From: a virus
IMG/VR virus record: IMGVR_UViG_3300046532_000866
Location: 1-26,952 of that record
DNA length: 26,952 bases
Direction: 5' to 3' (one strand)
Shown: positions 4,932-26,952 of the stretch, in pieces
Numbering within the stretch: position 1 is the first letter of the stretch
Layout of the letters: each line of letters starts with the position of its first letter
Notes under the pieces: generated by a model
Told to the model about the DNA's origin: nothing
Databases searched by the model: none
The model's input: the letters and a program-made list of their open reading frames with translations, nothing else
Program-made: the position numbers and the translations under genes

Positions 4932-5008
4932 GTCCTGCTAGCTTAAATGGATAGAGCAACGGCCTTCTAAGCCGTAGGTTGCAAGTTCAAGTCTTGCGTG
5001 GGACACCA
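4932..5008 (+). tRNA. tRNA-Arg (anticodon UCU)
   Basis: Full cloverleaf. The acceptor GTCCTGC (4932-4938) pairs with GTGGGAC (4998-5004) with two G-U pairs. D stem is GCTT/GAGC. The anticodon stem ACGGC/GCCGT encloses loop CTTCTAA, giving anticodon TCT. The T stem GCAAG/CTTGC encloses TTCAAGT. The discriminator is A and CCA is encoded (5006-5008). It reads AGA, a codon used heavily in this window, so it probably supplements the host pool. It has its own promoter and abuts promoter P4 on the 3' side. Confidence 0.97.
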
Positions 5009-9751: not shown

Positions 9752-10507
9752 ATGAGTCAAATTTTACCACCAACTACCTGTCCTTCCTGTGAAGAAGAAG
9801 TATCTTGGGTCGGAGACCTAATTTACTGTCTTAACAAGATATGTCCAGCACAATGGAGTAAAAAACTCGAACATTTCGGAAAAAATCTTAAAATCAAAGG
9901 ATTCGGTCCTGCTTGCATTAGTAAGTTAGGAATCGAAGACTACCCAGAGCTGTACAAGCTTACAGTTGAGGATATTTCCTCAAGACTAGGTTCAGAGAAG
10001 TTGGCTAGTAATCTAATCGCTGAGATTGAGAAATCAAAATCAGTTGACTTACAGACCTTACTGCCAGCTTTTTCTATACCACTTTTCGGTCGGTCAGCCT
10101 CTCAAAAGTTATGCGAGACAATATCTTCACTAGATGATGTCTCTGAGAAAAGTTGTGCCGAAGCCGGTATCGGTCCGAAAGCGACAGCAAACCTTCTGCA
10201 ATGGTTAGAAGACGAATTTAAACCTAATAGTTATAAAACGACCCTTCCCTTTACTTTCTCGGCAACGAGATTCGTTAAAAGAGAGATTATAGGGACAGTT
10301 TGTATTAGTGGTAGACTCAATTCATATCCCAGCAAAGCTCGTGCCGCAGAGGCTCTGGAAAAATACGGCTTTGCCGTAAAAAACAGTCTGACAAAGGACT
10401 GCACTCACCTTATAAATGAGTCAGGAATTGAATCAGCCAAAACTAAGGCAGCGCAAGATCGCGGTGTCATAATCATAACAAACATTTTAAACTTAATTGG
10501 AGAATAA
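9752..10507 (+). CDS. ligB: NAD+-dependent DNA ligase, zinc finger/HhH/BRCT half (subunit B)
   Basis: 251 residues. The Cys4 zinc finger uses C10, C13, C26 and C31 (TTCPSCEEE, YCLNKICPAQ) and matches the LigA C-x-N-x-x-CPAQ block. Helix-hairpin-helix repeats follow from about 45 to 160 (KIKGFGPACISKLGIEDYPE, GIGPKATANLLQWLE). A BRCT domain occupies about 178-250 (GTVCISGRLNSYPSKARAAE, GFAVKNSLTKDCTHLI). It contains no nucleotidyltransferase domain and would act with the half at 5056. It has its own promoter of the same class, so the two halves could be co-expressed although about 3.7 kb apart. T5 is the precedent for a two-subunit ligase. Confidence 0.93.
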   Translation: MSQILPPTTCPSCEEEVSWVGDLIYCLNKICPAQWSKKLEHFGKNLKIKGFGPACISKLGIEDYPELYKLTVEDISSRLGSEKLASNLIAEIEKSKSVDLQTLLPAFSIPLFGRSASQKLCETISSLDDVSEKSCAEAGIGPKATANLLQWLEDEFKPNSYKTTLPFTFSATRFVKREIIGTVCISGRLNSYPSKARAAEALEKYGFAVKNSLTKDCTHLINESGIESAKTKAAQDRGVIIITNILNLIGE

Positions 10508-12658: not shown

Positions 12659-13379
12659 TAATAATTACCGTGATTTCCAAGTAGGCATATTTGCCATAGA
12701 CATAGATGAAAAGTTCTTTAGTTACTTCCCTAAGAAGTGGCAACATGCTAAAGCCGCTGAAAGTTGGCTTAGGCACAATGAACACAGAATTTACTTACGA
12801 CTATGGACGTTCATAGATTCAGTTCTAGAACGACATAATAATGGGAAAATGGGCTTCCGTGACCCCATAATTGTATGGAGCAATATAGAAACTAAAGAAT
12901 TTAACATTCACCCAGGAGCAAATAGAATATTATTAAAAATGCTTTTACCAGAGGTTAGGCAAGTAGGTTGGGTAATAGACTCAACGTGCGCTAGTAGAGA
13001 CCAGTACAAAGGTATTTTTAATAACATTAAAGAAATTCAGAGAGATAATCAAGGCAATAACTTAATTCTCTGGAATGCTCATCATAGAACAGGCAGGGGA
13101 GGTACAGATCAGTATGATTTCTCCCTAGTCTCAGATAAGTATTTAGGTAACTCTACCTACGATACCCACGAACGCAGAGATAGATGGCTAAAAATAAGAC
13201 GCAGAAAGGGATTTGCTTGTTATGTAAACGATAAATTTATATATAATATAGGCGAACCCAAGTTTGATGATAAGTATAATATAACTACCCCTATGGGTAT
13301 CTATCAGTTGTTTTTACACTACTTTTTCGGGTACTCTTTAGATAGGTGGAAAACTAAGTATTTCAGGAGAAAATTATGA
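12648..13379 (+). CDS. conserved marine-phage protein, unknown function
   Basis: 243 residues from GTG 12648, with GGGGGAA at 12634-12640. It is very rich in aromatic and basic residues (YRDFQVGIFAIDIDEKFFSY, KAAESWLRHNEHRIYLRLWT, DRWLKIRRRKGFACYV). The order of motifs (DPIIVWSN, KEFNIHPGANR, VGWVIDSTCASRDQY) recalls an uncharacterised protein encoded near replication genes in marine phages. Recurrent histidines and arginines (HHRTGRGG) suggest nucleic-acid or phosphate contact, but no catalytic signature was found. It overlaps the helicase gene and ends as ATGA with the cupin gene. Confidence 0.68.
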   Translation: MIYNNNYRDFQVGIFAIDIDEKFFSYFPKKWQHAKAAESWLRHNEHRIYLRLWTFIDSVLERHNNGKMGFRDPIIVWSNIETKEFNIHPGANRILLKMLLPEVRQVGWVIDSTCASRDQYKGIFNNIKEIQRDNQGNNLILWNAHHRTGRGGTDQYDFSLVSDKYLGNSTYDTHERRDRWLKIRRRKGFACYVNDKFIYNIGEPKFDDKYNITTPMGIYQLFLHYFFGYSLDRWKTKYFRRKL

Positions 13380-13720
13380 AATCAGGGAAAGTATGGGGAC
13401 AAACGGAACTAATACATGCCAATGGTGTGCTAGAGTTCCATAGAGTAGAGTTTAAAGCTGGTTTTAAGTGTTCAGAACACGAACATCAGTTTAAGTGGAA
13501 CGGCTTCTTTGTGGAGTCAGGAAAGATGATTGTAAGATGCTGGCAGAATGATTACGAGTTAGTAGATGAGACTATCTTAGGCCCCGGCGACTTTACACAA
13601 GTTAAGCCAGGCGTAGTCCACCAGTTTGAAGGACTAGAGGGTGGAGTTGCCTTTGAGCTCTACTGGGCAGAATTTAACCATAATGATATTAGAAGGAGAA
13701 CAGTAGGTGGAAAAAAGTAA
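13376..13720 (+). CDS. cupin-domain protein
   Basis: 114 residues, with AGGAGA at 13365-13370. A single small beta-barrel is evident. The first cupin motif has metal-binding histidines in SEHEHQFKWNGFFVESGK, and the second has GPGDFTQVKPGVVHQFEG. Between and after them lie regular short strands (MIVRCWQND, VAFELYWAEF). Single-domain cupins bind a divalent metal and may be isomerases, dioxygenases or sugar-binding proteins. The length and motif order resemble mannose-6-phosphate isomerase-type small cupins. Substrate is unknown. It shares the replication operon, with ATGA coupling upstream. Confidence 0.78.
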   Translation: MKSGKVWGQTELIHANGVLEFHRVEFKAGFKCSEHEHQFKWNGFFVESGKMIVRCWQNDYELVDETILGPGDFTQVKPGVVHQFEGLEGGVAFELYWAEFNHNDIRRRTVGGKK

Positions 13721-14725: not shown

Positions 14726-15568
14726 ATGATAGCAATAGACTTATTACAAGAAAAACAAATGCCGTTTACTGTCAAAGGACAGGACGCACTAATAGCATGC
14801 CTAAATCCTGAGCATGATGATAGTAACCCAAGCCTTCGAGTAGATAGAGTAACAGGCGTAATGCACTGTTTCGCTTGTGGTTATAAAGGTAACTTATTTA
14901 CATACTTCGGTGCACCTGAGAGTCCACTAGAAGTAAAATTACATAGAATTAAAGAAAAGATTGCAAAAACCCGTTCTGAAACTGTAGGTATTCAACTCCC
15001 AGAAGACCGAATCGATTGGAAAGGTGGTCCGTACAGGAACATCAGTGAGGAAACTCTTAAGATATGGCAGGCTTTCACTTGGAATGTTCCAAAGTTTGAA
15101 GGCAGGATCATCTTTCCCATTCGAGACTTAACAGGTAAAACCATTGCACTCTTAGGGAGAACCATTGCTGGCGGTGTTGGGAATGAGAAGTACTATATTT
15201 ACCCACATGGGGTAAAGATGCCGTTTACACCAGCCAAGGTAAAAACAATCCAGAACAGAGTGATTCTGGTAGAAGGAATTTTTGATTGTCTCAATCTATG
15301 GGACAATGGCTTGAAGAATACAGTTTGCTGTTTCGGAACACAGCAAATGGATTGGTACAAGTTATCTCTGCTCAAACTACAAGGAGTGCAGGGAATAGAT
15401 ATTATATTTGACGGAGACGAAGCTGGAGTAAAGGCTTCGGAACAAATAAAAACGCTGGCACTAGAGATGGAATTGTCAGTACAAATCATTAAACTAAGAG
15501 ATGGACAAGACCCTGGCGGGTTCAGTCCAGATCAAGTTAGAAAGTTGAAAGCAAAATTATATGGATAG
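14726..15568 (+). CDS. DNA primase, DnaG-type (CHC2 zinc finger + TOPRIM)
   Basis: 280 residues. The N-terminal zinc finger uses C25, H30, C48 and C51 (ACLNPEHDDSNPSLR, MHCFACGYKGN). The TOPRIM core follows, with the catalytic Glu in RVILVEGIFDCLN and the D-x-D in IIFDGDEAGVKASEQ. It lacks a helicase domain, so it must work with the DnaB-like helicase at 11297. It is compact relative to bacterial DnaG (about 580 residues) because the C-terminal helicase-binding domain is absent. It is transcribed from P6 with almost no leader and no ribosome binding site, so initiation is probably leaderless or by read-through. It overlaps the nuclease gene by 8 bp. Confidence 0.93.
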   Translation: MIAIDLLQEKQMPFTVKGQDALIACLNPEHDDSNPSLRVDRVTGVMHCFACGYKGNLFTYFGAPESPLEVKLHRIKEKIAKTRSETVGIQLPEDRIDWKGGPYRNISEETLKIWQAFTWNVPKFEGRIIFPIRDLTGKTIALLGRTIAGGVGNEKYYIYPHGVKMPFTPAKVKTIQNRVILVEGIFDCLNLWDNGLKNTVCCFGTQQMDWYKLSLLKLQGVQGIDIIFDGDEAGVKASEQIKTLALEMELSVQIIKLRDGQDPGGFSPDQVRKLKAKLYG

Positions 15569-16094
15569 TTTAGAACTTCAGAAAGCAGTCTTTGGATTAC
15601 ATACTCGTAGATTCGGCACAGTCGCCGAGATTATGATTAAAAAGATTATAAAATCAGATACAAGTACAAAGTTGAATTACGATCTATTTGAAACTTCTTC
15701 TTCTTCTAGGATAGAGTGTAAATTTTCACGAGTTCAAAAGAAAGCAGAGCTGAAGATAACCGAGAATAATATTTTCCAAGCCATACAATGCGAAGCCAAT
15801 CGCGATATTCAGTATCACCAATGGCAAGACTACGACTGGGATTGTAATATCCAGCAAGTCAAGAAAGAAGAATTTGATATACTCTTTTACGGAGTATTCT
15901 TTAAAGATATGGTGTTGATCTTTAAGGTGGATAGTCGTAATATCGGCAAAGATATGAAGTATTCAAACAAACAACACAGAGGTAATACAGGAGAAGGACA
16001 GTTCCATTTAAACCGAGCTACTTTCAAATACCACCTAGATTACCATTTATTTAAAACATTAACTTATGGAGAATTATTAGAATGGCTAAAATAG
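15561..16094 (+). CDS. PD-(D/E)XK nuclease-like protein
   Basis: 177 residues from ATG 15561. A PD-(D/E)XK core is visible: D41 in NYDLFETSSSS, a turn, then E52-C-K54 in RIECKFSRVQ, preceded by helix GTVAEIMIKKIIKSD. Later strands (DILFYGVFFKDMVLIFKVD) complete the fold. Restriction-endonuclease-like phage proteins of this size are common. It sits between primase and polymerase, which favours a role in recombination, repair or host DNA degradation. Pattern evidence only. Its 3' end overlaps the polymerase start by 13 bp. Confidence 0.62.
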   Translation: MDSLELQKAVFGLHTRRFGTVAEIMIKKIIKSDTSTKLNYDLFETSSSSRIECKFSRVQKKAELKITENNIFQAIQCEANRDIQYHQWQDYDWDCNIQQVKKEEFDILFYGVFFKDMVLIFKVDSRNIGKDMKYSNKQHRGNTGEGQFHLNRATFKYHLDYHLFKTLTYGELLEWLK

Positions 16095-18364
16095 CACTTA
16101 TAGAAACCAAGCCAACAAGTACAAACTTCGATAAATATTTCGAGTTTGAATTTGACCGCTTTGCCCTATGTTCTGATAGTTCAGTAGCGAAAGTTCTCAA
16201 GAAAGATGTTGACCTAGAACTCAATCCAGATGATTACGATTGGCTAATCTTAGTGGGTGCAGAAGCATTCAAACAGTTTACTAGAAAGACATCGGTAACC
16301 GAATACAATGGCAAGATAATAGATGAGAAGTTTTTAGCTCTCATGAATCCTGCGATTATTAAGTTCAAACCTGAAGCTAAGAAAGCCTTTGAGGATGCTA
16401 TTCAAAGTATCTCAGGCTATGTTAGTGGGGAACTTAAGATTGAAAAACTATCAGAAGATAAATGTTACGGCATAGACGATAAAGAAACAGCACTCAAGTT
16501 TGTACAGGCAGCAATAGATGCGCCACTTCCGTACATAGCACTTGATTCCGAGACCTCTGCATTATATTGTAGAGATGGATATATGCTTGGTTTCTCTATG
16601 TCTTATGAAGCCGATCACGGCATATATTGTGACTGTGATGTAATTGATGAAGAAGTAGAAGCAAAAATGCAGGAACTCTTCAACAAGAAAATTGTAGTAT
16701 TTCACAATGCGAAATTTGATTTACAATGGTTTATTTACCATTTTAACTTCGAGTTTCCAAACTTCGAGGATACAATGCTTATGCATTATATGTTCGATGA
16801 AAACCCTGGCACACATGGTCTTAAACAGCTAGCGATGAAGCATACTCCTTTCGGGGACTATGAAAAACCATTAGAAGATTTTATAGCCCAGTACAGGAGA
16901 TCTCATGGCATACTAAAAGAAGCGTTTAGTTATGACCTGATTCCTTTTGAAATAATGAAAGACTACGCTGCTATGGACGCAGTTGTAACTTTTGCCTTAT
17001 ATCAAAAGATGAAGCCAGCAATCCTGAAGAACAAGAGACTCTTATGGGTCTACGAGAATATTCTACTAGAAGGCTGTAACTTTTTAGTACAAGTCGAAAG
17101 TAATGGAGTTCCTTTCGATAAAGAAAGACTAACCTTTGCCCAAGGTATAATGACGGAAGATATAGCAAAAGCAGTTGCAGAACTATACGAATTTCCTGAA
17201 GTTAGACAATTTGAAGTAGCAAAAGGTAAAGACTTTAACCCAAACTCCACAGTACAACTTCGATCCCTGTTATTTGACTTTATTGGTCTAAATCCGACAG
17301 GTAAGAAGACTGGCACAGGTGCGCACAGTACAGATGCAGAAGTCTTAGGACAACTCGCTGAAGACCATGCAGTACCTAAGCATATCCTAGAGATACGGCA
17401 GAAGAATAAGATAAAGACTACTTATCTTGATAAGATTATTCCTAATCTTGACATGGATAGTAGACTCCGCACAGGTTTTAACTTGCACGGCACTACTTCT
17501 GGTCGATTATCCTCTAGTGGTAAATTGAATATGCAACAGCTTCCTAGGGATAACCCTACGGTTAAAGGTTGTATCAAAGCAAGACCAGGACACAAAATCG
17601 TCTCTATGGACTTAACAACGGCAGAAATGTATGTGGCCGCTGTTTTGGCGAAAGACGTAGGACTGCAGAACGTATTTAAAGAAGGAGGCAACTTCCATTC
17701 TAATATCGCTAAGCAAGTCTTTAATCTGCCCTGTGAGGCTGAGCAAGTCGATGAATTTTACAAAGACAAAAGGCAACAAGCTAAAGCCGTTTCTTTCGGC
17801 ATTATGTATGGTGCTGGCCCAGCTAAGATATCTTGGCAGGTATCGAAGGACTCAGGTACAGAGTTCTCAATGCATGACGCACAGTCAGTTATCAAAGACT
17901 ACTTCCAGTCATTCCCTAACCTGAAAAAATGGTTGGATGATTGTGGTTCGTTCATTCGTTCCAATGCGTATATCTATTCCGAGTTTGGCAGGAAGCGTCG
18001 TCTTCCCAATGCCAGGAGCAAGGACAAAGGTATCGCTTCTCATGAAGTACGAAGTGGAATTAACTTTCTAGTGCAATCCGTCGCATCGGACATAAACCTA
18101 TTGGGTGCGATAGATATGCAACATTACATCAATAGAAAAGGAATGAAATCCAAAATCTTCGCACTTGTGCATGACTCAGTTCTAGCAGAAGTTCCAGAAG
18201 ATGAAATGGAAATCTATTGTGATAACCTGAAAACATTCGTTCAAAAAGACCGAGGTTTTTCAATACCCAACTGCCCTGTAGGATGTGACTTTGAAATAGG
18301 TGAAGACTACAGTTTCAGCAAATGGGGGAAATTTTATAATGAAATATTTAAAAGCGACAACTAA
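16082..18364 (+). CDS. polA: DNA polymerase, family A, with 3'-5' exonuclease
   Basis: 760 residues. Exonuclease motifs are D155/E157 in ALDSETSA, VFHNAKFDLQW and Y295-x3-D299 in YAAMDAV. Polymerase motifs are GRLSSSGKLNMQQLP, motif A with D510 (VSMDLTTAEMYV, Glu kept), motif B R564-x3-K568-x3-F572 (RQQAKAVSFGIMYG) and motif C H697-D698-S699 (LVHDSVLAEV). Motif C has Ser where E. coli Pol I has Glu (HDE). F572 aligns with E. coli Phe762, as in the Phe-type viral polymerases. An N-terminal domain (1-145) precedes the exonuclease and is not a flap nuclease. It is the phage replicative polymerase. GGAGAA precedes the ATG. Confidence 0.97.
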   Translation: MAKIALIETKPTSTNFDKYFEFEFDRFALCSDSSVAKVLKKDVDLELNPDDYDWLILVGAEAFKQFTRKTSVTEYNGKIIDEKFLALMNPAIIKFKPEAKKAFEDAIQSISGYVSGELKIEKLSEDKCYGIDDKETALKFVQAAIDAPLPYIALDSETSALYCRDGYMLGFSMSYEADHGIYCDCDVIDEEVEAKMQELFNKKIVVFHNAKFDLQWFIYHFNFEFPNFEDTMLMHYMFDENPGTHGLKQLAMKHTPFGDYEKPLEDFIAQYRRSHGILKEAFSYDLIPFEIMKDYAAMDAVVTFALYQKMKPAILKNKRLLWVYENILLEGCNFLVQVESNGVPFDKERLTFAQGIMTEDIAKAVAELYEFPEVRQFEVAKGKDFNPNSTVQLRSLLFDFIGLNPTGKKTGTGAHSTDAEVLGQLAEDHAVPKHILEIRQKNKIKTTYLDKIIPNLDMDSRLRTGFNLHGTTSGRLSSSGKLNMQQLPRDNPTVKGCIKARPGHKIVSMDLTTAEMYVAAVLAKDVGLQNVFKEGGNFHSNIAKQVFNLPCEAEQVDEFYKDKRQQAKAVSFGIMYGAGPAKISWQVSKDSGTEFSMHDAQSVIKDYFQSFPNLKKWLDDCGSFIRSNAYIYSEFGRKRRLPNARSKDKGIASHEVRSGINFLVQSVASDINLLGAIDMQHYINRKGMKSKIFALVHDSVLAEVPEDEMEIYCDNLKTFVQKDRGFSIPNCPVGCDFEIGEDYSFSKWGKFYNEIFKSDN

Positions 18365-18491
18365 TTGTATGTACCAGAAAATGTTTAGAATAAATCGTCA
18401 TGCATTTGACGGAAGAAGCGATGATGTCGCTGGCTTTGTTCTAGCTATTTTCGTATTTGGTACTATGTACATTAGTTTAATACAACTGTAG
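18339..18491 (+). CDS. 50-residue single-pass membrane protein
   Basis: ATG 18339 is preceded by GGGGGAA at 18324-18330 and overlaps the polymerase end. An upstream in-frame ATG at 18300 is less likely. The N-terminus is basic (MKYLKATTNCMYQKMFRINR) and is followed by a hydrophobic segment (VAGFVLAIFVFGTMYISLIQ) at the very C-terminus. The topology suggests a cytoplasmic basic head and one inner-membrane helix. No family is recognised. The stop precedes AGGAGA, the ribosome binding site of the SDR gene. Confidence 0.6.
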   Translation: MKYLKATTNCMYQKMFRINRHAFDGRSDDVAGFVLAIFVFGTMYISLIQL

Positions 18492-18503
18492 GAGATAAGG
18501 ATA

Positions 18504-19151
18504 ATGGAAATGTTCAAAGGAAAACGTGTAGCAATAACAGGACATACAAGCGGAATTGGTAAAGAAATTTACGAGTACTGTCAATTTCATGGTGCAGAGG
18601 TCAAGGGCTTCTCACGTACTAGTGGCTTCGATTTAAGAGATGGAGGTGATGATATCATCAATGAAATTCTTAGATGGGATGCTGATATAGTATTTAATCA
18701 TGCGTGGACTCCGAGAACACAGAACAAGATTCTTAAAATATTACACACACAATGGGAAAAGTATAATAACAAAGTAATTATCAATACAGGCTCGGCTACC
18801 TGTTATTACTCTATAGGTGCAGACATCTATGAGAAGGACAAGTCAGAGCTTCGAGATTATTGTATTCAATCCGCACAGCTTTATCCTCATTCTAACAAGT
18901 GTAGAGTACACAATGTTAGTATGGGTTGGACTAACTCTGCAATTTTAACGGGGGTAGAAGATGGGGAGTATTTTATTGACCCATACGAAGCCGCACTTGT
19001 TTTAATTAACTTATGTCAGCCCCAGAATTATGTCATGTCTGAAGTAGTAGTGAATTCTAAATTCAAGCCTATGTCAGAAATGGTGTACTTACGAGATAAA
19101 GCATCGCAGAATGTAATTACGTCACTTGGAGAGCCGCGTGCCAACGATTGA
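18504..19151 (+). CDS. short-chain dehydrogenase/reductase (SDR) family
   Basis: 215 residues, with AGGAGA at 18490-18495. The Rossmann NAD(P)-binding motif is RVAITGHTSGIGKEI (T-G-x3-G-I-G), followed by DLRDG and the DADIVFNHA strand in place of the usual N-N-A-G. A catalytic-type S in NTGSATCYY and Y-x3-K in YEKDKSEL are present. The enzyme lacks a long C-terminal substrate domain, so it is compact. It likely reduces or oxidises a small carbonyl or sugar substrate. It starts the accessory block and overlaps the QueC-like gene by 14 bp. Confidence 0.85.
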   Translation: MEMFKGKRVAITGHTSGIGKEIYEYCQFHGAEVKGFSRTSGFDLRDGGDDIINEILRWDADIVFNHAWTPRTQNKILKILHTQWEKYNNKVIINTGSATCYYSIGADIYEKDKSELRDYCIQSAQLYPHSNKCRVHNVSMGWTNSAILTGVEDGEYFIDPYEAALVLINLCQPQNYVMSEVVVNSKFKPMSEMVYLRDKASQNVITSLGEPRAND

Positions 19152-19938
19152 AGTTAGTTCAAAAGAAAACAGTACCTTAAAAAGCACCGCTGAAATGAGA
19201 AAGGCTATAGAACAGGCTGATCCTAGAACTAATACTTATATGCCACTTAGTGCAGGAGTAGAGTCCACCGCGGCTTTACTTTATGCAGTACGTGACCCAG
19301 ATTTGCATCCCTTTTGTGTATACTGGTATGAACAACGCTATGGTATGTTTTCGGACGCTATGGCGTTTTATACACAGAAACAAGCAGAGTATTTTAATCT
19401 ACCTTATGGTAATGATAAATCTATGCTATCACTTTTGCAACATACGAGGGAAGTCCCGATCATAGTATCGGGACTATCTTCTTTTATGTCTGTAGTGTTG
19501 GGGCAGCCCAACGGAATTAAATTTAAATGGTTTATGATGGGAGCTAACGCAGAAGATGATATGCGTATGCGTTTACAGTTTAGGGAGTACCGTAAGATTA
19601 TGGCTCTCTTCGCTAGTGATGTCCTAGATGGATCAGGAGTTGCCTTATGGGCAGCTAGAGAAACGCCCCAAGTTATGAATCCATTGGATTTCTTGACAAA
19701 ATCGGAAATGTACGCTTTAATAATTAGAGAAGAGCCGAAACTTGCAGAAATGATGTGGACTTGTATAGTACCTAAGGGCGAGATTAGAAAAAATGGAAAG
19801 ATAGTAGGATATGAGGCTTGTAATACCTGCTATAAATGTTTAGAACTAAACCAAGCTAAAAAGACTGCTGCTGACGCAGTATTCAGATACCAAGAAGGTA
19901 TAAAATATCTTAGTAGTATTCGGAAGGACATGATGTAA
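19138..19938 (+). CDS. QueC-like PP-loop ATPase
   Basis: 266 residues from GTG 19138, with GGAGAG at 19128-19133. TTG 19126 is an alternative. The ATP-pyrophosphatase loop is LSAGVEST (residues 37-44), a variant of S-G-G-x-D-S-T with Ala and Glu substitutions. Features of QueC/ExsB are M-G-A-N-A-E-D-D and a terminal Cys cluster MWTCIVPKGE and EACNTCYKCLELNQA (a four-Cys zinc site). QueC makes preQ0 from CDG, and phages use this pathway for 7-deazaguanine DNA modification. The other pathway enzymes (QueD, QueE, FolE, a transglycosylase) are not in this window, so a PP-loop enzyme of a different specificity is also possible. Confidence 0.75.
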   Translation: MPTIEVSSKENSTLKSTAEMRKAIEQADPRTNTYMPLSAGVESTAALLYAVRDPDLHPFCVYWYEQRYGMFSDAMAFYTQKQAEYFNLPYGNDKSMLSLLQHTREVPIIVSGLSSFMSVVLGQPNGIKFKWFMMGANAEDDMRMRLQFREYRKIMALFASDVLDGSGVALWAARETPQVMNPLDFLTKSEMYALIIREEPKLAEMMWTCIVPKGEIRKNGKIVGYEACNTCYKCLELNQAKKTAADAVFRYQEGIKYLSSIRKDMM

Positions 19939-20531
19939 TGAGACCATTTCTTCATAAATCCTTTATGAGTATACAAGAATGCTCAATAGTACAACAGTAT
20001 GTAAACTTGTTAGTACTAAATAAACGGATTAAGAAGATTAGTCAAGAGAACGGAGAGTTCTGGCAGCTTAATGGCGATCCACTAACCGACTCAATAGGAC
20101 TTGTGTATCAAGAGACAGTTATAGCACATATAAAGAAAAAAGTAAACCTAAGCTACAGTATGCTTAGACGATGGAATGCAGGAGCCTCTATGCCTTGGCA
20201 TAGAAATAGATGGGAAGCGGAATGGACTGTACTAATACAGATTAGTGATAACAACTGGCCTATTGGTTTTACTGGAGGACAACAAGAATCTCCTTATATA
20301 GAAGGACAGCAATCTTCAAGTATGATTTTGACTCCTTCACGGGGAGACGCTGTTATATTTAATGCTTCAGAGAACTTTCATAGCAGACACAAATTAAAAG
20401 GGTCAGAGTGTACTACTCTCTGTCTCTACTACACAGAAGTAGATGGCTATTTAGATTGTAAAGATAACCGAGACAACTATGGCGATAACTACAAAACAAA
20501 GCAATTAGCAGAGGTTAAATATGGAAAATAA
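19938..20531 (+). CDS. 2OG-Fe(II) oxygenase-like protein with altered metal motif
   Basis: 197 residues, TAATG start at 19938. The pattern of an N-terminal FLHKSFMSIQECSIVQQYVN, a metal region YSMLRRWNAGASMPWHRN, and a distal NASENFHSRHKLKG then CTTLCLYYTEVD is that of 2OG-Fe(II) oxygenases. The H-x-D/E metal motif reads H88-R-N90, so the acidic ligand seems lost. H148 is kept and K152/K154 could bind 2OG. Either the ligand is supplied elsewhere (E93 or E95 in RWEAEW are near) or the protein is non-catalytic. It is coupled to the QueC-like gene and overlaps the next by 11 bp. Confidence 0.65.
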   Translation: MRPFLHKSFMSIQECSIVQQYVNLLVLNKRIKKISQENGEFWQLNGDPLTDSIGLVYQETVIAHIKKKVNLSYSMLRRWNAGASMPWHRNRWEAEWTVLIQISDNNWPIGFTGGQQESPYIEGQQSSSMILTPSRGDAVIFNASENFHSRHKLKGSECTTLCLYYTEVDGYLDCKDNRDNYGDNYKTKQLAEVKYGK

Positions 20532-21138
20532 AGACTATGAGGATACCTGGTATGACTCTGAAATATACCCCGATAGTCGAGTAGTGGGCAGAGAACTATA
20601 CGCTAACGGATATATTAAAGAGTGCCTGCATTATAGCGCAATTACAAAAGAAGAATACGCAGTAATCTGCCGAGAAAGGGTAGAGATGTTTGTAGTTGGA
20701 AATAAACGAATTATGAATCCAATTGATAAATTGGATCAAGAATCCTACTTTTTATGGATTAAGAACAAAGAAAAAGAAATAGTAGCTTGTGTGAGGATTA
20801 TACCCCCTCATCTAGCTAGTGAATTTGAAGGAAGGCAGTACTCTACTTGGGATAAGGGTTGGATAATCGATTCTAAGTGTGCCCTATTTCCTGTCGAAAG
20901 TAATAAGCATGCTCCCTGTCTTTGGACACCAGAGTGGGGAACACGAGTAACTGGAGTGGAGAATGCTATTATGGACTTATATGAAGCAGGCCACATGTAT
21001 GTAACTTATTTTAGTAAAGAGATGCCAGGATTAGTTTTCCTAGGCAGCGAAAAAGATAAGTATGGATATGAAGGTTGGAAGTGGGTATGGGAACCAATCC
21101 CGAATGAGGAGGCACAACTTATAATGGAGGCGTATTGA
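20521..21138 (+). CDS. GNAT/autoinducer-synthase-fold-like protein
   Basis: 205 residues. The stretch RERVEMFVV, DKLDQESYFLWIKNK, EIVACVRIIPPH, then WTPEWGTRV and AGHMYVTYFSKEMPGLVFLG follows the order of the LuxI-type N-acyl-homoserine lactone synthase fold (R-x-x-x-F, D-x-x-D, G/A-x-x-R-[LI]-[LI]-P, E-[LW]-x-R-x, Y-V-T). The fold is GNAT-related. Residue identity is low, so enzymatic activity is uncertain and another acyltransferase substrate is possible. GCAGAGG precedes the ATG. It lies inside the accessory block and overlaps the next gene by 4 bp. Confidence 0.42.
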   Translation: MENKDYEDTWYDSEIYPDSRVVGRELYANGYIKECLHYSAITKEEYAVICRERVEMFVVGNKRIMNPIDKLDQESYFLWIKNKEKEIVACVRIIPPHLASEFEGRQYSTWDKGWIIDSKCALFPVESNKHAPCLWTPEWGTRVTGVENAIMDLYEAGHMYVTYFSKEMPGLVFLGSEKDKYGYEGWKWVWEPIPNEEAQLIMEAY

Positions 21139-21707
21139 AACGTAACTCCATTAAAAGTATAAGAAATAGACAACGCTCTCAAAAAAGAGTTTGGCTAATG
21201 AGACAGAGAAAGATGCAAGATAGAGTTACTCGTAGGGAAGATTTAGTCTTCCCAATTTACGTTATTCATAATGACAATGTAGAGTTATTAGATGGTATCT
21301 TGTGGCTGGAAGATCAAGTCTTAGACGATAAGAACATGGATGGACACACTCTAGGAATGAGAAGAATTCAAACTCCTATGAAAAGTATATACCCATTAAG
21401 GTATATGATTGAAGATGAAACTGGACTCATGCGGCATAGAGGTAAAACCTTTGTAGATAATGAGGGTAGAGTTTTTGCGTATGAGAAAACAGAAATTTGT
21501 AAAGTACACTATCACAAGATAAAGAAGAGAGAGAAAAAGACCGTAGCTACTGTTCTATGGCTAAAAGGTTGTCCCTTTCCTTTCGCAGAGAAGAGCCCAC
21601 CCCCAGTTGAATTAACTTGGGCGGGGGTACTGTATAGACGAGACATTCCATGGAAAATATGGGACTTCTCAGATAAGAGAGAGAAGAGTACGTGGAGAAA
21701 GATATGA
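21135..21707 (+). CDS. basic protein, unknown
   Basis: 190 residues from TTG 21135 (TTGA overlap with the upstream stop). The N-terminus is strongly basic (RNSIKSIRNRQRSQKRVWLM, RQRKMQDRVTRRED). The central region has beta strands (LVFPIYVIHNDNVELLDGIL, GRVFAYEKTEICKVHYHKIK). The C-terminus has WKIWDFSDKREKSTWRKI. Prolines and aromatics are frequent (PFPFAEKSPPPVELTW). No catalytic motif was found. RNA or DNA binding is plausible from charge but not shown. It overlaps the methyltransferase gene by 4 bp. Confidence 0.62.
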   Translation: MKRNSIKSIRNRQRSQKRVWLMRQRKMQDRVTRREDLVFPIYVIHNDNVELLDGILWLEDQVLDDKNMDGHTLGMRRIQTPMKSIYPLRYMIEDETGLMRHRGKTFVDNEGRVFAYEKTEICKVHYHKIKKREKKTVATVLWLKGCPFPFAEKSPPPVELTWAGVLYRRDIPWKIWDFSDKREKSTWRKI

Positions 21708-22237
21708 GTAAGTTAATAACTGAAGAGTATAGGGACATACTGAAAAAGACACATGCAGAAGGCAAATGGGGCAATACAGGTGCCCAAGGCGGATTCTTCA
21801 GAAATATTCTATTCTTAGCAAATAGATTTAAAGCTAAAGAGATTTTAGACTATGGAGCAGGATGGGGTGGAGTTAAAATCCGGATGGCAAAGGAACGCCC
21901 AGATATAGCAGTATACGAATATGAGCCTGCGAGGGACGAAGTATCTGCACTTGCTACACCACGAAAGTTCGTAATATGTATAGATGTACTAGAACATATA
22001 GAACCCGATTGCTTAGAAGCAGTTTTAGAAGATATAGCACGATTAACAATATTTAGAGGATACCTTTCTATAGCTACTGAACCTGCACACAGAATACTAA
22101 CAGATGGTAGAAATGCACATTTAATTGTAGAAGAACCAGAATGGTGGGCAAAAAAGTTAAAAAATCACTTTAACTTAGTACAACAACGACCAGAGAAAGG
22201 GTCTTGCTCTTTCGTTATAAAGCCGAAAATTGTATGA
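21704..22237 (+). CDS. SAM-dependent methyltransferase (class I)
   Basis: 177 residues from ATG 21704 (ATGA overlap; GGAGAAA upstream). Motif I is KEILDYGAGWGGVKIRMAKE, the acidic end of strand 2 is YEYEPARDE, and motif IV-V is FVICIDVLEHIEPDCLEAVL. The later LTDGRNAHLIVEEPEWWAKK is a family feature I have seen in phage methyltransferases of unknown target. The D-P-P-Y-type motif of N6-adenine or N4-cytosine DNA methyltransferases and the P-C motif of 5-cytosine enzymes are absent, so a nucleic acid base is not the obvious target. It ends as ATGA with the glutaredoxin gene. Confidence 0.85.
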   Translation: MSKLITEEYRDILKKTHAEGKWGNTGAQGGFFRNILFLANRFKAKEILDYGAGWGGVKIRMAKERPDIAVYEYEPARDEVSALATPRKFVICIDVLEHIEPDCLEAVLEDIARLTIFRGYLSIATEPAHRILTDGRNAHLIVEEPEWWAKKLKNHFNLVQQRPEKGSCSFVIKPKIV

Positions 22238-22545
22238 GTAAGGGAAGTAAACAAAGACCTACAAATTATAGCAAATATTCCGAGAATTGGGATAAGATAT
22301 TTAGGAGAAAAATGAAAGTAATTATATATGGAAAGGACAGTTGTCCTTATTGCGACATGGCTAAAAAGCTATGCGAGCAAAAAGAATTGGAGTTCCAGTA
22401 CAAAAAACTAGGTAGAGATTATGACGCACTTGAAATGGCACTAGAATTTCCTACAGCAAGAACATTCCCACAGATTATAGTGGACGGAGACAAGATTGGT
22501 GGGTATAACGAATTTAAGTCAGTACTAGTGAGGGCACAGGTATGA
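22234..22545 (+). CDS. glutaredoxin with N-terminal small-protein fusion (two candidate starts)
   Basis: 103 residues from ATG 22234 (ATGA overlap), or 77 from in-frame ATG 22312 with AGGAG at 22303-22307. The first 26 residues (MSKGSKQRPTNYSKYSENWD...) resemble a short conserved phage protein usually encoded on its own. The rest is glutaredoxin: VIIYGKDSCPYC with the C-P-Y-C active site, FPTARTFPQIIVDGDKIGGY with the cis-Pro and G-G-Y glutathione/thiol site. It would supply electrons for disulfide reduction such as ribonucleotide reductase. No reductase gene is in view. It is ATGA-coupled to the next gene. Confidence 0.9.
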   Translation: MSKGSKQRPTNYSKYSENWDKIFRRKMKVIIYGKDSCPYCDMAKKLCEQKELEFQYKKLGRDYDALEMALEFPTARTFPQIIVDGDKIGGYNEFKSVLVRAQV

Positions 22546-22811
22546 ATGTAGATAAAATTATAGAAAATATGAATAAAGGCATAGTGCTGCTAGAGTATAC
22601 AAGTCTTATTTCTGGTAATAAGAAGCATAGGGAGATGACTCTAAATGAGAAGTATATTCCAGAGACACAACGAGTCTTTAGCCCTGGCTTTAGCTTTAAA
22701 AACAAAATAAGCGATAAATTGATTTGCTTTGATATAGAATTTGGTAAGTGGGACGATATAGATAAAGATACCATTCTTAGTCATAAAATGTTAACAAAAG
22801 AAGAAAAATAA
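22542..22811 (+). CDS. DUF2693-like small protein
   Basis: 89 residues in an ATGA overlap. The first strand pair IVLLEYTSLISGNKKHREMT and LNEKYIPE, followed by KLICFDIEFGKWDDIDKDTI, follows the order of phage DUF2693-type proteins (G-V-V-x-V-x-F-T-K-x-x-G-x-x-R-x-M-x-x-T-L, then V-x-D-x-E-x-x-x-W-R-x-F). The family has an SH3-like fold and unknown function. The stop TAA directly precedes the asparagine synthase ATG without spacer. Confidence 0.6.
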   Translation: MNVDKIIENMNKGIVLLEYTSLISGNKKHREMTLNEKYIPETQRVFSPGFSFKNKISDKLICFDIEFGKWDDIDKDTILSHKMLTKEEK

Positions 22812-24320
22812 ATGTGCGGATTCGTAGGGACTACTAACAAACATCTTTGTGAGCTAATGTTGAAGAAACAGGAGCATCGAGGACCTGATGCTCTTTCTTT
22901 TTGGTCTGACGATAGGCTGTCGCTTGGACATGCCTTGTTAGACATATCAGGTAGTAAACAAACCCAACCTATAAGAACTAAGTATGGAAGTTACGTTCTA
23001 TTTAATGGCGAGATGTACGATAGTAGAGATCAGAATGATACCGTATGGCTGGGAAAGATGCTAGACAAGTACGGAACCGCAGTTCTAGAATGGTCTGATT
23101 GGCATGGTAGTATAGCTTACTATAAGCCCCAAGAAAACAAACTTCTTTTAATTAGAGACCAGTTCGGAACTAAGCCTTTATGGTGGGGATTTGATGGTGA
23201 GACTTTTCAATTTAGTACAAGTTGTAAATCTTTTCTACACAAGGAGTTGCAAACTAAAGAACGAAAGTTTGGCTCTATGGGAGACGAGTGTATCTGGAAA
23301 GGTTTTCATAAGGTAGAGCCAGGCGGTATGCTAGAGTTTGATTTAAATGATAATTTTAAGCTTCGTAGAAGTAATTTATGGAATTGGTTTACCTTAAATA
23401 AGACAAAATTTAACCCCGAAGAATTTATTGAGAAAACCAAAGCATCTATCTTGAAGGTAGCAGACCACGGAAACTCTAGTAATAAACATGCTATTTTCCT
23501 AAGTGGCGGGTTCGACAGCACACTAGTAGCATCTATATGCCGTGAAAGTACTAAGGATATCACGCTTTTCACTTGCGGTTATAGTAACGAAAAGGGGAAC
23601 AACCATGAACACATGGGTTTCCAAGAAGAAAGTCGTATGGCTAAAAAGACTGCTGAATTATTTGGCAGGGAGTTAGTTCATGTAGATTTAGGGAGAGATC
23701 AGAGAATCGCACTAGGTAAGACCTGGTTGTCGGGAACTCATTATGCTTGGTCTGACCACAATAGGCAAGCACCTCGTTATTTACTAGCGAGAACAGCGGC
23801 AGAACATGGATGTAAAGTAGTATTAACTGGTGATAGCGGGGATGAGTTATACTCAGGCTATATGCACCATGATAAAAGATTTAATGAAGAGTACTGCTTA
23901 GCTATGATAGAGCAGTACAGAAAAGAACGATGGTTCCCTTCTGATATACTTGATCAGACAGATCCTATGGCAGCCAGTCTCTTTATTGACCTGTTGACAA
24001 CATCAGAACAGAATATTCTAGCTACTGATCAAACCTGTGGGTTGTTTGGTATGGAGTCAAGGATTCCACTACTTACACAGAGGTATGTTCACTATAACAT
24101 GACTATACCTACAGTAACAAGATTTAAACAGATGAAAGAGTATGAATTAGGTACAACAAAATATCTAATGAGAGAAGTAATGAAAGACTATTTACCCGAC
24201 CACGTAGTAAAACGAAAACAAAAGACTGGTTGGAGTAGCCCATGGGATAATAATCACCGCGAACAAAGTCTTCGTTGGAGAGATGAAGACCTTGAATTAT
24301 TGAAAAGGCTAGGTGCATGA
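22812..24320 (+). CDS. asnB: asparagine synthase (glutamine-hydrolysing)
   Basis: 502 residues. The glutaminase domain starts MCGFVG (Cys2 nucleophile after Met removal) with HRGPDALSFW, HALLDISGSKQTQ, VLFNGEMYD and RDQFGTKPLWWG. The synthetase domain has the PP-loop AIFLSGGFDSTLVASI, SDHNRQAPRY, LTGDSGDELYSGY and FGMESRIPLL. It is slightly shorter than E. coli AsnB (554). The reaction gives asparagine from aspartate, glutamine and ATP, but paralogues amidate other acids, so a modification role is possible given its neighbours. It follows immediately on the previous stop codon. Start choice is secure because of the N-terminal Cys. Confidence 0.95.
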   Translation: MCGFVGTTNKHLCELMLKKQEHRGPDALSFWSDDRLSLGHALLDISGSKQTQPIRTKYGSYVLFNGEMYDSRDQNDTVWLGKMLDKYGTAVLEWSDWHGSIAYYKPQENKLLLIRDQFGTKPLWWGFDGETFQFSTSCKSFLHKELQTKERKFGSMGDECIWKGFHKVEPGGMLEFDLNDNFKLRRSNLWNWFTLNKTKFNPEEFIEKTKASILKVADHGNSSNKHAIFLSGGFDSTLVASICRESTKDITLFTCGYSNEKGNNHEHMGFQEESRMAKKTAELFGRELVHVDLGRDQRIALGKTWLSGTHYAWSDHNRQAPRYLLARTAAEHGCKVVLTGDSGDELYSGYMHHDKRFNEEYCLAMIEQYRKERWFPSDILDQTDPMAASLFIDLLTTSEQNILATDQTCGLFGMESRIPLLTQRYVHYNMTIPTVTRFKQMKEYELGTTKYLMREVMKDYLPDHVVKRKQKTGWSSPWDNNHREQSLRWRDEDLELLKRLGA

Positions 24321-24727
24321 TGGATTTAAAGACAGAAGAAATAGAGGCGAGTTTAGCACCTGAGATCACGGAGCACTACAAGAATAGTACAATGGGTCGT
24401 GGAGCCAAACTTGCTATGGAGTTGAATGCTGAACGCAAACGTCTCAAACAAGAGATGGAAGAACTGCAATTAGAAGTTGATGACCTCAAACCTTCTACAC
24501 CAACTGGAACAGTTGATAGCTACGTTAAATGGGTAGCAACGATTCTTGGTGTTGTAGGTGTATTTATAATGAGTGCAGGGTTTGGCACAGCAGGACAAGT
24601 ATGTTATGCCTTAGCAGCATGTTCATGGGTGTATGTAGGACATTGCTGGAATGACAAAGCAATTATGATTGGTAGTGCTATAAGTGGCACTGCAGTACTT
24701 ATGAGCCTAGTAGAGCTTCTGGCATGA
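24317..24727 (+). CDS. coiled-coil membrane protein
   Basis: 136 residues from ATG 24317 (overlaps the TGA; a second ATG follows at 24320). The first half is a coiled coil (ELNAERKRLKQEMEELQLEV). Three hydrophobic segments follow: WVATILGVVGVFIMSAGFG, VCYALAACSWVYVGHCW and MIGSAISGTAVLMSLVELLA. Small phage proteins with a coiled coil and membrane helices can be holins or membrane anchors for replication. No motif was seen. It ends in an ATGA overlap with the helicase gene. Confidence 0.7.
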   Translation: MMDLKTEEIEASLAPEITEHYKNSTMGRGAKLAMELNAERKRLKQEMEELQLEVDDLKPSTPTGTVDSYVKWVATILGVVGVFIMSAGFGTAGQVCYALAACSWVYVGHCWNDKAIMIGSAISGTAVLMSLVELLA

Positions 24728-26004
24728 AGGCAGTCATAAGTAACAGAATACAGTTACAAGGTGATGCTAGATTCCTTGGACTTCTTGAACAGGAGCTAAC
24801 TTATACTTTACCTCCACGTATGCCCCAAGATCCACCTATGATCATTAAAACAATTCGCCCATTAAAAGAGGGTTTGGTTTCCATACCTGTAGGGAGAATT
24901 GATTTAATCCCAGAGGACTACGAGATTGTTGACAAACGCGTACAAGCGCCGGCAGTCTTTCCCGAGTTTAAGTTCAAATTACGTGGGTCTCAACAAGATG
25001 TTTATGACGCAGTGGAAGACAACAGTATAATCAACGCTTGGGTTAGTTGGGGGAAGACTTTTACGGGTCTTTCCATAGCCGCAAAGCTTGGTCAGAAAAC
25101 ACTTGTAGTAACACATACTACCAACCTACGTAATCAGTGGGAGAAGGAAGTTCAGAAGTGCTTTGGTATCCAAGCAGGCAGAATCGGGTCAGGAGTCTTC
25201 GATGTTGAGTCTCCAATAGTTGTGGGGAACATTCAGAGTTTATACCGCAGGATAGACGAGATAAAGCATATATTCGGGACAGTAATTTTAGACGAAATGC
25301 ATCACGTTTCATCCCCAACCTTTACTAGAATTGTAGATGAAATGCCTGCGAGATTCAAAATAGGACTCACAGGTACACTAGAAAGAAAAGACGGACGTCA
25401 TGTTGTCTTTAGAGACTACTTTGGGAATAACGTATTCAAGCCACCCAAAGAAAACTATATGACTCCAGAGATAGACTGCATCAAAAGTGAAGTAAGATTC
25501 CTAGACGGATCTTTTACTCCTTGGGCAGAGAGAATAAACCATCTAACACAGAATGAAGAGTACATACATAGTGTTGCAATGATTGCAGCTACGTATGCAG
25601 CAGAGGGGCACAAGGTACTAGTAGTATCTGATCGAGTTGCCTTTCTAAAGATATGTCAACGACTCGTAGGAGATAATGCAGTATGCATAACAGGAGACAT
25701 GGGATTTGAAGATAGAGATACCACTATGAGATTGATAGGTGGGTCAAAGAATATTTTATTTGGTACACAGTCTATATTCTCAGAAGGAATTTCCCTAGAC
25801 CACCTAAGTTGTTTAGTACTTGCTACACCAGTTAATAATGAACCACTGCTTACGCAGTTAATTGGTAGGGTTATACGAAAGAAAGAGGGAAAGATACAGC
25901 CAAAAATAGTAGATATCCATTTGAAAGGCAAAACTGCAACTAGACAGGCCAACGCGCGGATGGGATATTATGTTAAACAAGATTACAAGATTAACATTAA
26001 GTAA
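24724..26004 (+). CDS. SF2 DNA/RNA helicase, UvsW-like
   Basis: 426 residues. The N-terminal substrate domain (1-90, ISNRIQLQGDARFLGLLEQE) precedes the RecA-like domains. Motifs are Q-like RGSQQDVYDAV, I INAWVSWGKTF, Ia LVVTHTTNLRNQWEKEV, II VILDEMHH, III GLTGTLERKDG, IV VLVVSDRVAFL, V GTQSIFSEGISL and VI LLTQLIGRVIRK. UvsW in T4 unwinds D-loops and R-loops and remodels stalled forks, moving the phage from origin- to recombination-dependent replication. It shares its operon with the upstream accessory block. It ends 42 bp before promoter P7. Confidence 0.93.
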   Translation: MKAVISNRIQLQGDARFLGLLEQELTYTLPPRMPQDPPMIIKTIRPLKEGLVSIPVGRIDLIPEDYEIVDKRVQAPAVFPEFKFKLRGSQQDVYDAVEDNSIINAWVSWGKTFTGLSIAAKLGQKTLVVTHTTNLRNQWEKEVQKCFGIQAGRIGSGVFDVESPIVVGNIQSLYRRIDEIKHIFGTVILDEMHHVSSPTFTRIVDEMPARFKIGLTGTLERKDGRHVVFRDYFGNNVFKPPKENYMTPEIDCIKSEVRFLDGSFTPWAERINHLTQNEEYIHSVAMIAATYAAEGHKVLVVSDRVAFLKICQRLVGDNAVCITGDMGFEDRDTTMRLIGGSKNILFGTQSIFSEGISLDHLSCLVLATPVNNEPLLTQLIGRVIRKKEGKIQPKIVDIHLKGKTATRQANARMGYYVKQDYKINIK

Positions 26005-26046
26005 TCCTAAACTTTATTTGAATTAAATACATGAAAAAAATAGTTC

Positions 26047-26075
26047 TTGACAAATCCTCATGAAATTGGTATAAT
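26047..26075 (+). promoter_or_regulatory. sigma70-type promoter P7
   Basis: AAAATAGTTC then TTGACA at 26047-26052, 17 bp spacer, TATAAT at 26070-26075. The predicted +1 (about 26081-26082) lies inside the next reading frame, after its ATG at 26078, so P7 can serve the SSB gene at 26477 but not a start at 26078. Confidence 0.93.
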
Positions 26076-26077
26076 AT

Positions 26078-26464
26078 ATGATATATTTTAATTGGAAGAA
26101 GATTTGGGGCACGACTCAAGGGGATGTTGGAGACATCATCACCATACTGAGAATGATTACTCTAAAATTGTATCCAAAAAATTATTACGATAAGACCATT
26201 AGGTTTTATGGGAAAAACTTTCATGGTAGTTCGTTCCTGGTTAATCCAGTAGCGCTACTTGAAAAAGGGCGTGCCTTTAGCGATAAAGAGGTTGCGGAGT
26301 ATGTAGGTGTTGCTTCATTCCGTAACTATCACGAGTACGTAAAAACAAAAGACACCACACTAGATCTTATTTACTGTGCAGTAAGTGAGAACACTATTAA
26401 CCAAAACAGACTGCTCGAACTAAGGGATGGAATAATCCATTTCAAGTACGAGGAGACATTATAA
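26078..26464 (+). CDS. conserved phage protein, unknown function
   Basis: 128 residues from ATG 26078. It has the pattern of a recurring marine-phage protein: an N-terminal IYFNWKKIWGTTQGDVGDII, then LYPKNYYDKTIRFYGKNFHG, a SSFLVNPVALLE strand and a helical C-terminus (EVAEYVGVASFRNYHEYVKT, LDLIYCAVSENTI). It is often found next to SSB or recombination genes, which fits its position directly before the ssDNA-binding gene. No catalytic motif is seen. Its ATG lies only 2 nt after the -10 of P7, so it must be translated from longer transcripts or from a downstream start. Confidence 0.65.
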   Translation: MIYFNWKKIWGTTQGDVGDIITILRMITLKLYPKNYYDKTIRFYGKNFHGSSFLVNPVALLEKGRAFSDKEVAEYVGVASFRNYHEYVKTKDTTLDLIYCAVSENTINQNRLLELRDGIIHFKYEETL

Positions 26465-26476
26465 AGGAGAACTATT

Positions 26477-26952
26477 ATGGCTATTGGCTTTAATACAACA
26501 AAGGGCTCAGCCCAGAAGTCCAAAATCGAAACTTACAATTTTGGCAACAAGGAAGACCATCACATACGACTAGTAGGTGATTTACTACCTAGATACGTTT
26601 ATTGGATCAAAGGAGAGAACAACAAGAACATCCCTATGGAGTGCTTGTCTTTCGATAGAAATTCAGAAACATTCAACAATGTCGAGCATGACCATGTTCG
26701 AGATTTTTACCCAGACCTTAAATGTGGTTGGGCTTATGCAGTCCAAGGAATCGACTACTCTGATAAAAGTATCAAAGTTGTTAACTTGAAAAGAAAATTG
26801 TTTGATCAAATCTTGCTAGCTATGGAAGAAATTGGTAACCCTACCGATTACACTACTGGTTGGGATATTTTCTTCAAGAGATTGAAGACTGGACCTCAAG
26901 TGTTTAATGTTGAATATCAACTGCAAATGCTTAAATGCAAACCTAGAGCTTT
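26477..26952 (+). CDS. single-stranded DNA-binding protein (gp32-like OB fold), 3' end cut by window
   Basis: The ATG at 26477 is preceded by AAAGGAGA at 26463-26470, the strongest ribosome binding site of the region. 158 codons are visible without a stop to the window end. The N-terminus MAIGFNTTKGSAQKSKIETY is followed by strands LVGDLLPRYVYWIKGENNK, GWAYAVQGIDYSDKSIKVVN and LKRKLFDQILLAMEEIGNPT. The order matches phage SSBs of the gp32 type with an OB fold, in which a hydrophobic LK[KR]-x-[LV]-x-x-x-I helix follows the core. The acidic C-terminal tail lies outside. Strong signals fit an abundant protein. Confidence 0.72.
   Translation, partial: MAIGFNTTKGSAQKSKIETYNFGNKEDHHIRLVGDLLPRYVYWIKGENNKNIPMECLSFDRNSETFNNVEHDHVRDFYPDLKCGWAYAVQGIDYSDKSIKVVNLKRKLFDQILLAMEEIGNPTDYTTGWDIFFKRLKTGPQVFNVEYQLQMLKCKPRA

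Follow-up and report, generated by a model that had tools for sequence, protein, structure and literature searches.

The uncultured phage contig IMGVR_UViG_3300046532_000866 of IMG/VR (26,952 bases, analysed at its full length and called the window below) carries, between its DNA polymerase A gene and a UvsW-like helicase gene, genes for a QueC-like PP-loop ATP-pyrophosphatase, a GNAT acyltransferase and an AsnB-like glutamine-dependent amidotransferase, and these three constitute a linked, lineage-specific module that is present or missing in a nearly all-or-none manner among related phages. No paper describing this gene set was found in the literature searched, whose coverage was partial, and as far as that literature shows the module is previously undescribed. 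A preliminary description of this DNA, made from its letters, had stated that the enzymes encoded here match no complete known pathway, and for the three-gene module this holds. We tentatively favor the reading, to which we give somewhat less than an even chance, that the trio is an auxiliary module of an uncultured marine phage lineage, located in a hot spot between polymerase and UvsW, and that its product is a small molecule bearing both an amide and an N-acyl group, with a sugar or another precursor of surface glycans as the most plausible candidate. As auxiliary metabolism of phages at a hot spot the module is ordinary, and it is unusual in its branch of the QueC fold and in the strict company of its genes.

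The linkage was established using the QueC-like, GNAT, AsnB-like, SDR and oxygenase proteins and the protein encoded from position 21135 as scan queries, which returned several hundred overlapping loci corresponding to far fewer contigs; the matched relatives are uncultured phage contigs of a marine lineage. Merging of near-identical loci left about 44 contig groups spanning the interval from polymerase to UvsW, and in these groups, which are phylogenetically non-independent, all three genes were found in 28, GNAT and AsnB-like genes in 6, QueC-like and AsnB-like genes in 2 and none of the trio in 8, while the AsnB-like gene was never found alone (0 of about 44). Gene order is constant in the closest relatives (polymerase, SDR, QueC-like, oxygenase, GNAT, 21135, optionally glutaredoxin, the 22542 gene, AsnB-like, UvsW), with the rare exception of a locus in which another oxygenase replaces the usual one (L012). 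More distant members keep the QueC-like, GNAT and AsnB-like genes after the SDR and the oxygenase are gone, and have sulfotransferase-like, CTP-transferase-like and cupin genes and other 2-oxoglutarate (2OG) oxygenases as incoming genes. In one clade (L121-L135) the interval consists of polymerase, 21135, an oxygenase or other genes and UvsW; no member of the trio is present there, and a profile search of the contigs for QueC-like and AsnB-like proteins was empty.

Additional evidence comes from a second enzyme hot spot located between the two halves of a split DNA ligase gene. A 60-kb record (G011), the only sufficiently long genome among those with a trio gene missing from the polymerase-UvsW interval, carries GNAT and AsnB-like genes in that interval and its QueC-like gene at the split ligase, adjoining GIY-YIG and carbamoyltransferase genes. 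Other members hold at this second site an extra set composed of GNAT, radical SAM/SPASM and QueC-like genes, located in distant relatives at L203:645-2519, L226:6684-8669 and L232:6780-8693. The pairing at two sites indicates that QueC-like and GNAT genes travel as a pair, accompanied by the AsnB-like gene. The whole block had initially been considered a possible single cassette, and this was rejected, since the SDR, oxygenase, methyltransferase and glutaredoxin genes come, go or move; the part of the proposal that stands is the linkage of the trio, the remaining enzymes being exchanged or absent and 21135 being a backbone gene.

The QueC-like protein matches the family phrog_1550 (PHROG profile, E = 1.4e-7). 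A search of the PDB with a profile from the clade-I alignment gave no match, so that structure was needed to place the protein. Its AlphaFold2 model (mean predicted local distance difference test score, pLDDT, of 87.5) retrieved PP-loop enzymes in Foldseek and was aligned in VIA-align 2 to QueC 3bl5 with Z 15.6 (root-mean-square deviation 3.1, 187 residues aligned), to Cap9 9nto with Z 15.5 and to QueC 2pg3 with Z 15.1, followed by ThiI as the next family (Z 12.5) and QatC (Z 12.4), which identifies a QueC-type PP-loop fold. Across an alignment of 28 members that includes all clades, the ATP loop (P-loop) and a CxxCxKCxE cluster are present in 28/28, and the zinc-type cluster C(x)8CxxCxxC is retained, with 8-19 residues rather than a constant 8 separating its first cysteine from the rest. 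The family thus shares its fold, PP-loop and four-cysteine cluster with QueC (the preQ0 synthase, PF06508), and a P..K.E motif aligns with that of E. coli QueC. However, the SGGxDS loop of QueC is here of the [GA]Gx[ED] type, and the substrate motifs YxQxHxxE, VPxRN and YPDC, shown or proposed to be required for preQ0 synthesis (PMC13329287), were each found in 0/28 members; similarity to PF06508 at E up to 1 was seen in 17/28, the L203 copy scoring above the cut-off. Because the fold, the ATP loop and the cysteine cluster are kept and the preQ0 motifs are gone, the phage family stands apart from QueC proper, as a branch of its own within the QueC fold.

Enzymes of this fold with roles in anti-phage defense were also compared. 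QatC (qatABCD), whose reaction is described as unresolved, has lost the deazaguanine-recognition residues too (PMC13279940), and the phage family shares with it the CxxCxxC cluster and the QatC motif P(x)4TK (PMC13329287), present in 23/28 members, with a C-x18/19-C spacing in many. In contrast, Cap9 of type IV CBASS retains the deazaguanine motifs. By sequence, QatC gave a weak alignment (E = 1), and its candidacy as the nearest sequence relative was set aside as suggestive at that value. The phage-borne gene lies beside GNAT and AsnB-like genes and, unlike Cap9 and QatC genes, shows no CD-NTase, QatA, QatB or QatD neighbor. Membership in a defense system was rejected, since PADLOC, run on six QueC-like and four block proteins, returned weak QueC matches and no QatC. 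No match to the QueC-like protein was found in isolated phages, and no cellular relative emerged when species genomes of GTDB were scanned with two patterns, a search that distant relatives could escape; the family was found in this phage lineage alone.

The AsnB-like protein, clearly assigned from its sequence, matches Pfam Asn_synthase over the full length of both domains (E = 7e-40) and combines a class II (Ntn) glutamine amidotransferase domain with an AsnB synthetase domain. The nucleophile Cys2 and the SGGxDS ATP loop are invariant in both alignments examined, and because of this invariance a glutamine-driven, ATP-dependent amidation of the kind typical of the family is likely. E. coli AsnB shares Cys2, SGGxDS and the two-domain layout; identity to it is 20%, however, and the Glu of its SGEGSDE segment is Asp in all AsnB-like members. 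Against the asparagine synthase model TIGR01536 (NCBIfam) the protein scores 190 bits, below the 267-bit cut-off, and asparagine as the product is possible but not supported. Matches in isolated phages reach 22-26% identity only. Besides, the protein encoded from 20521, for which profile searches had been suggested, proved to be a GNAT of the ElaA/PA0115 type according to both its profile match to 1xeb (E = 3.5e-4) and its AlphaFold2 model (pLDDT 89.7), whose best Foldseek matches were 1xeb (2.8e-6) and 5z6n (7.9e-6). It differs from these top matches in having about 16% identity and about 50 additional residues, its model also resembles protein N-acetyltransferases (NatD), and isolated phages gave no match to it.

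Because two ATP-pyrophosphatases and a coenzyme A (CoA) acyltransferase are kept together, we infer that a single substrate undergoes amide formation, ligation and N-acylation in succession. Each of the two PP-loop enzymes would use ATP to activate a carboxylate (or amide), the AsnB-like partner supplying ammonia from glutamine as the nucleophile and the QueC-like enzyme using a separate one, and the GNAT would transfer an acyl group from CoA onto an amine. The product would be an amidated, N-acylated small molecule that satellite enzymes (SDR, 2OG oxygenase, methyltransferase and glutaredoxin), swapped between lineages, may tailor. We favor a sugar or a precursor of surface glycans as the substrate because the two hot spots contain carbamoyltransferase, sulfotransferase-like, CTP-transferase and nucleotide-sugar-transferase-like genes, a set that would suit the decoration of a sugar. 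Some points weigh against this interpretation. The connection to glycans comes solely from the company that the genes keep; the linkage of the trio reflects few independent events, because the QueC-like family was found in this lineage only; and a few contigs are without a QueC-like or GNAT gene in the polymerase-UvsW interval, most of them too short to show a placement elsewhere. As a more novel proposal, the QueC-like family may be a biochemically new branch of the fold, an ATP-dependent ligase that joins a carboxylated compound to an amine (on a protein N-terminus, a nucleobase or a sugar) and works with the GNAT and AsnB-like enzymes in a new kind of phage pathway, which we regard as unlikely.

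The genes could instead be auxiliary metabolic genes that act separately and have accumulated at a hot spot of insertion, their linkage reflecting shared ancestry and the AsnB-like enzyme making asparagine or sparing nitrogen. Both the polymerase-UvsW interval and the interval between the ligase halves (ligA_N-ligA_C) carry very variable enzyme genes, and the SDR, methyltransferase, glutaredoxin and oxygenase genes do behave separately; nevertheless, the joint presence or absence of the trio, the relocation rather than loss of the QueC-like gene in the 60-kb record, and the low TIGR01536 score and uniform Glu-to-Asp change of the AsnB-like protein make this explanation rather unlikely, if the most serious of the competing ones. 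It is also conceivable that a protein N-terminus is what the QueC-like protein modifies, in the manner known for Cap9 and supposed for QatC, with the GNAT and AsnB-like enzymes acting on the same target in counter-defense or host takeover. Cap9 is structurally as near to it as QueC, the missing deazaguanine motifs together with P(x)4TK and the cysteine spacing recall QatC, the GNAT model has its resemblance to NatD, and a SPASM radical SAM gene adjoins the second QueC-like copy. Conversely, no clear N-terminus of MGGS/MGTS type, and hence no MG[GT]S partner, was seen at any open reading frame start of the window, and neither the sequence and structure scores of QatC nor the PADLOC result points to such a system, so that we consider this possibility distinctly unlikely.

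The preliminary description had raised the possibility of a new DNA hypermodification cassette; in the form considered here, in which the enzymes would place a base bearing an amide or acyl group into the DNA, we assess it as very unlikely. The position of the block among replication genes would be consistent with it, as would the presence of enzymes that acylate, methylate, oxidize or carry out ATP-dependent amide chemistry, and in other phages QueC takes part in the modification of DNA with deazaguanine (PMC6884629). Yet with positive controls, FolE/GTP cyclohydrolase I (PF01227) and QueD/PTPS (PF01242) were found in 0/11 relatives including contigs of 102.9 and 104.1 kb, and the TGT family (PF01702) in 0/10 including the 102.9-kb contig, a search that a distant DpdA could escape; some of these 10-11 relatives are fragments. 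Inspection by eye of the 102.9-kb relative showed a ribonucleotide reductase and replication genes and no nucleotide hydroxymethylase or thymidylate-synthase-like gene, and phages with the same backbone exist without the trio. A QueC-fold enzyme in a phage is what the block has in common with the 7-deazaguanine DNA modification cassettes of the phage 9g type, from which it differs in that no FolE, QueD or TGT/DpdA-type genes were found in the relatives. Because neither these genes nor the deazaguanine motifs were found, DNA modification by the known deazaguanine route was considered unlikely in these phages and rejected as an explanation, and the hypermodification proposal as a whole gained no positive evidence.

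The features of the gene run are collected in Table 1. All enzyme genes of the preliminary description were recovered on the plus strand, each neighbor abutting or overlapping the next, and its list had left out one small gene (22542-22811). From the SDR through UvsW, every gene abuts the following one or overlaps it by 1-14 nt; the coupling runs on into the DUF6552 and UvsW genes and therefore marks one phage gene run, not the enzymes alone. The ratio of nonsynonymous to synonymous polymorphism (pN/pS) was 0.18-0.45 against relatives for the genes compared, as expected under purifying selection, and for this reason these genes are taken as real. The polymerase shares 45-46% identity with its counterparts in T5-like (Demerecviridae) phages, and the helicase about 42% with those in Vibrio T5-like phages. 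A GGAG lies upstream of GTG 19138, which is probably the start of the QueC-like gene in preference to TTG 19126.

Table 1. Features of the gene run from the DNA polymerase to the UvsW-like helicase (window positions).
Feature	Coordinates	Strand	Remarks
DNA polymerase A (T5/Demerecviridae-like)	16082..18364	+	Left border of the hot spot
SDR, 215 aa, TGHTSGIG nucleotide-binding motif	18504..19151	+	Satellite gene
QueC-like PP-loop ATP-pyrophosphatase	19138..19938	+	Module core; likely start GTG 19138, frame open from TTG 19126
2OG-Fe(II) oxygenase-like protein	19938..20531	+	Satellite
GNAT acyltransferase, ElaA/PA0115-like	20521..21138	+	Module core
phrog_4386 protein	21135..21707	+	Phage backbone gene between polymerase and UvsW
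Methyltransferase (Methyltransf_23), ATG 21704	21704..22237	+	Satellite
Glutaredoxin, CPYC active site, ATG 22234	22234..22545	+	Satellite, variable position
Small conserved protein adjoining AsnB	22542..22811	+	phrog_16296 at E 0.034 only
AsnB-type glutamine-dependent amidotransferase	22812..24320	+	Module core; Cys2 glutaminase and SGGxDS synthetase domain
DUF6552 protein	24317..24727	+	Continues the coupling from AsnB to UvsW; varies among relatives
UvsW-like helicase	24724..26004	+	Right border of the hot spot

Among the satellites, the SDR has weak profile matches (8e-6), a nearly invariant TGHTSGIG and, in the window copy, YxxxK, and it is common in unrelated phage contigs without any member of the trio. 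The oxygenase matches phrog_2954, a family labelled ferrochelatase (7e-13), has weak Pfam 2OG matches and a conserved H/R/H pattern, and in some relatives is swapped for another oxygenase or a different gene. The methyltransferase (Pfam, E = 8e-8) and the glutaredoxin (E = 3e-10) are clearly assigned by their sequences; the former occupies this position in the window only, with distant relatives elsewhere in L026/L028/L032 and others. Profile searches for the 21135 protein, which had been listed with the enzymes as an unassigned member, identified the family phrog_4386 (E = 8e-8). As a backbone gene it was excluded from the enzyme set: it has 176 relatives, is kept in clade V where the cassette is absent, and has no match in isolated phages. 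The conserved 3' end of this gene (TWRKI-stop, window 21692-21707) appears to provide an ATGA overlap together with a ribosome-binding site, which would give a start to any gene inserted downstream, and the gene that follows it varies among relatives (methyltransferase, glutaredoxin, lipoprotein-like and others).

In the window, separate genes encode the adenylation/OB part (5056-6006) and the C-terminal part (9752-10507) of a split NAD-dependent DNA ligase, with GIY-YIG/T5orf172, 2OG oxygenase, carbamoyltransferase and SGNH-like genes between them; in relatives this interval is the second enzyme hot spot. A highly conserved cupin gene at 13376-13720, upstream of the primase, has 81-93% identity in near relatives; the cupin may belong to the module, because in the clade L069/L099/L101 it lies between the polymerase and the QueC-like gene. 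The 102.9-kb relative (G001, L195-L200) also encodes, by eye, curlin-repeat-like, CHASE2-like, IscU- and IscA-like, polyphosphate-kinase-2-like and glycosyltransferase-like proteins. Regarding regulatory and RNA features, an Rfam search of 15000-26952 found no RNA element, and one tRNA-Arg gene (anticodon TCT) is located at 4932-5008. Positions 26047-26075, upstream of the 26078 gene, match the sigma-70 promoter consensus perfectly (TTGACA, 17 nt, TATAAT), with TG ahead of the second hexamer. The coding regions of the QueC-like (19452-19475) and AsnB-like (22870-22895) genes contain hairpins that resemble terminators and have T-rich tails, and 20 such hairpin sites were observed in 16000-26952 against 6.1 expected.

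Altogether, if the trio is one pathway, these ocean phages would supply the host with chemistry of their own for amide and acyl formation, encoded beside replication genes and including a QueC-fold enzyme that has lost the residues for deazaguanine recognition. The labeling of proteins in anti-phage immunity is a recently found role of enzymes with this fold, and a phage-borne branch of it would offer a direct test of the use of related chemistry by phages. Moreover, unlike a list of scattered auxiliary genes, the conserved trio provides a defined three-gene set for expression.

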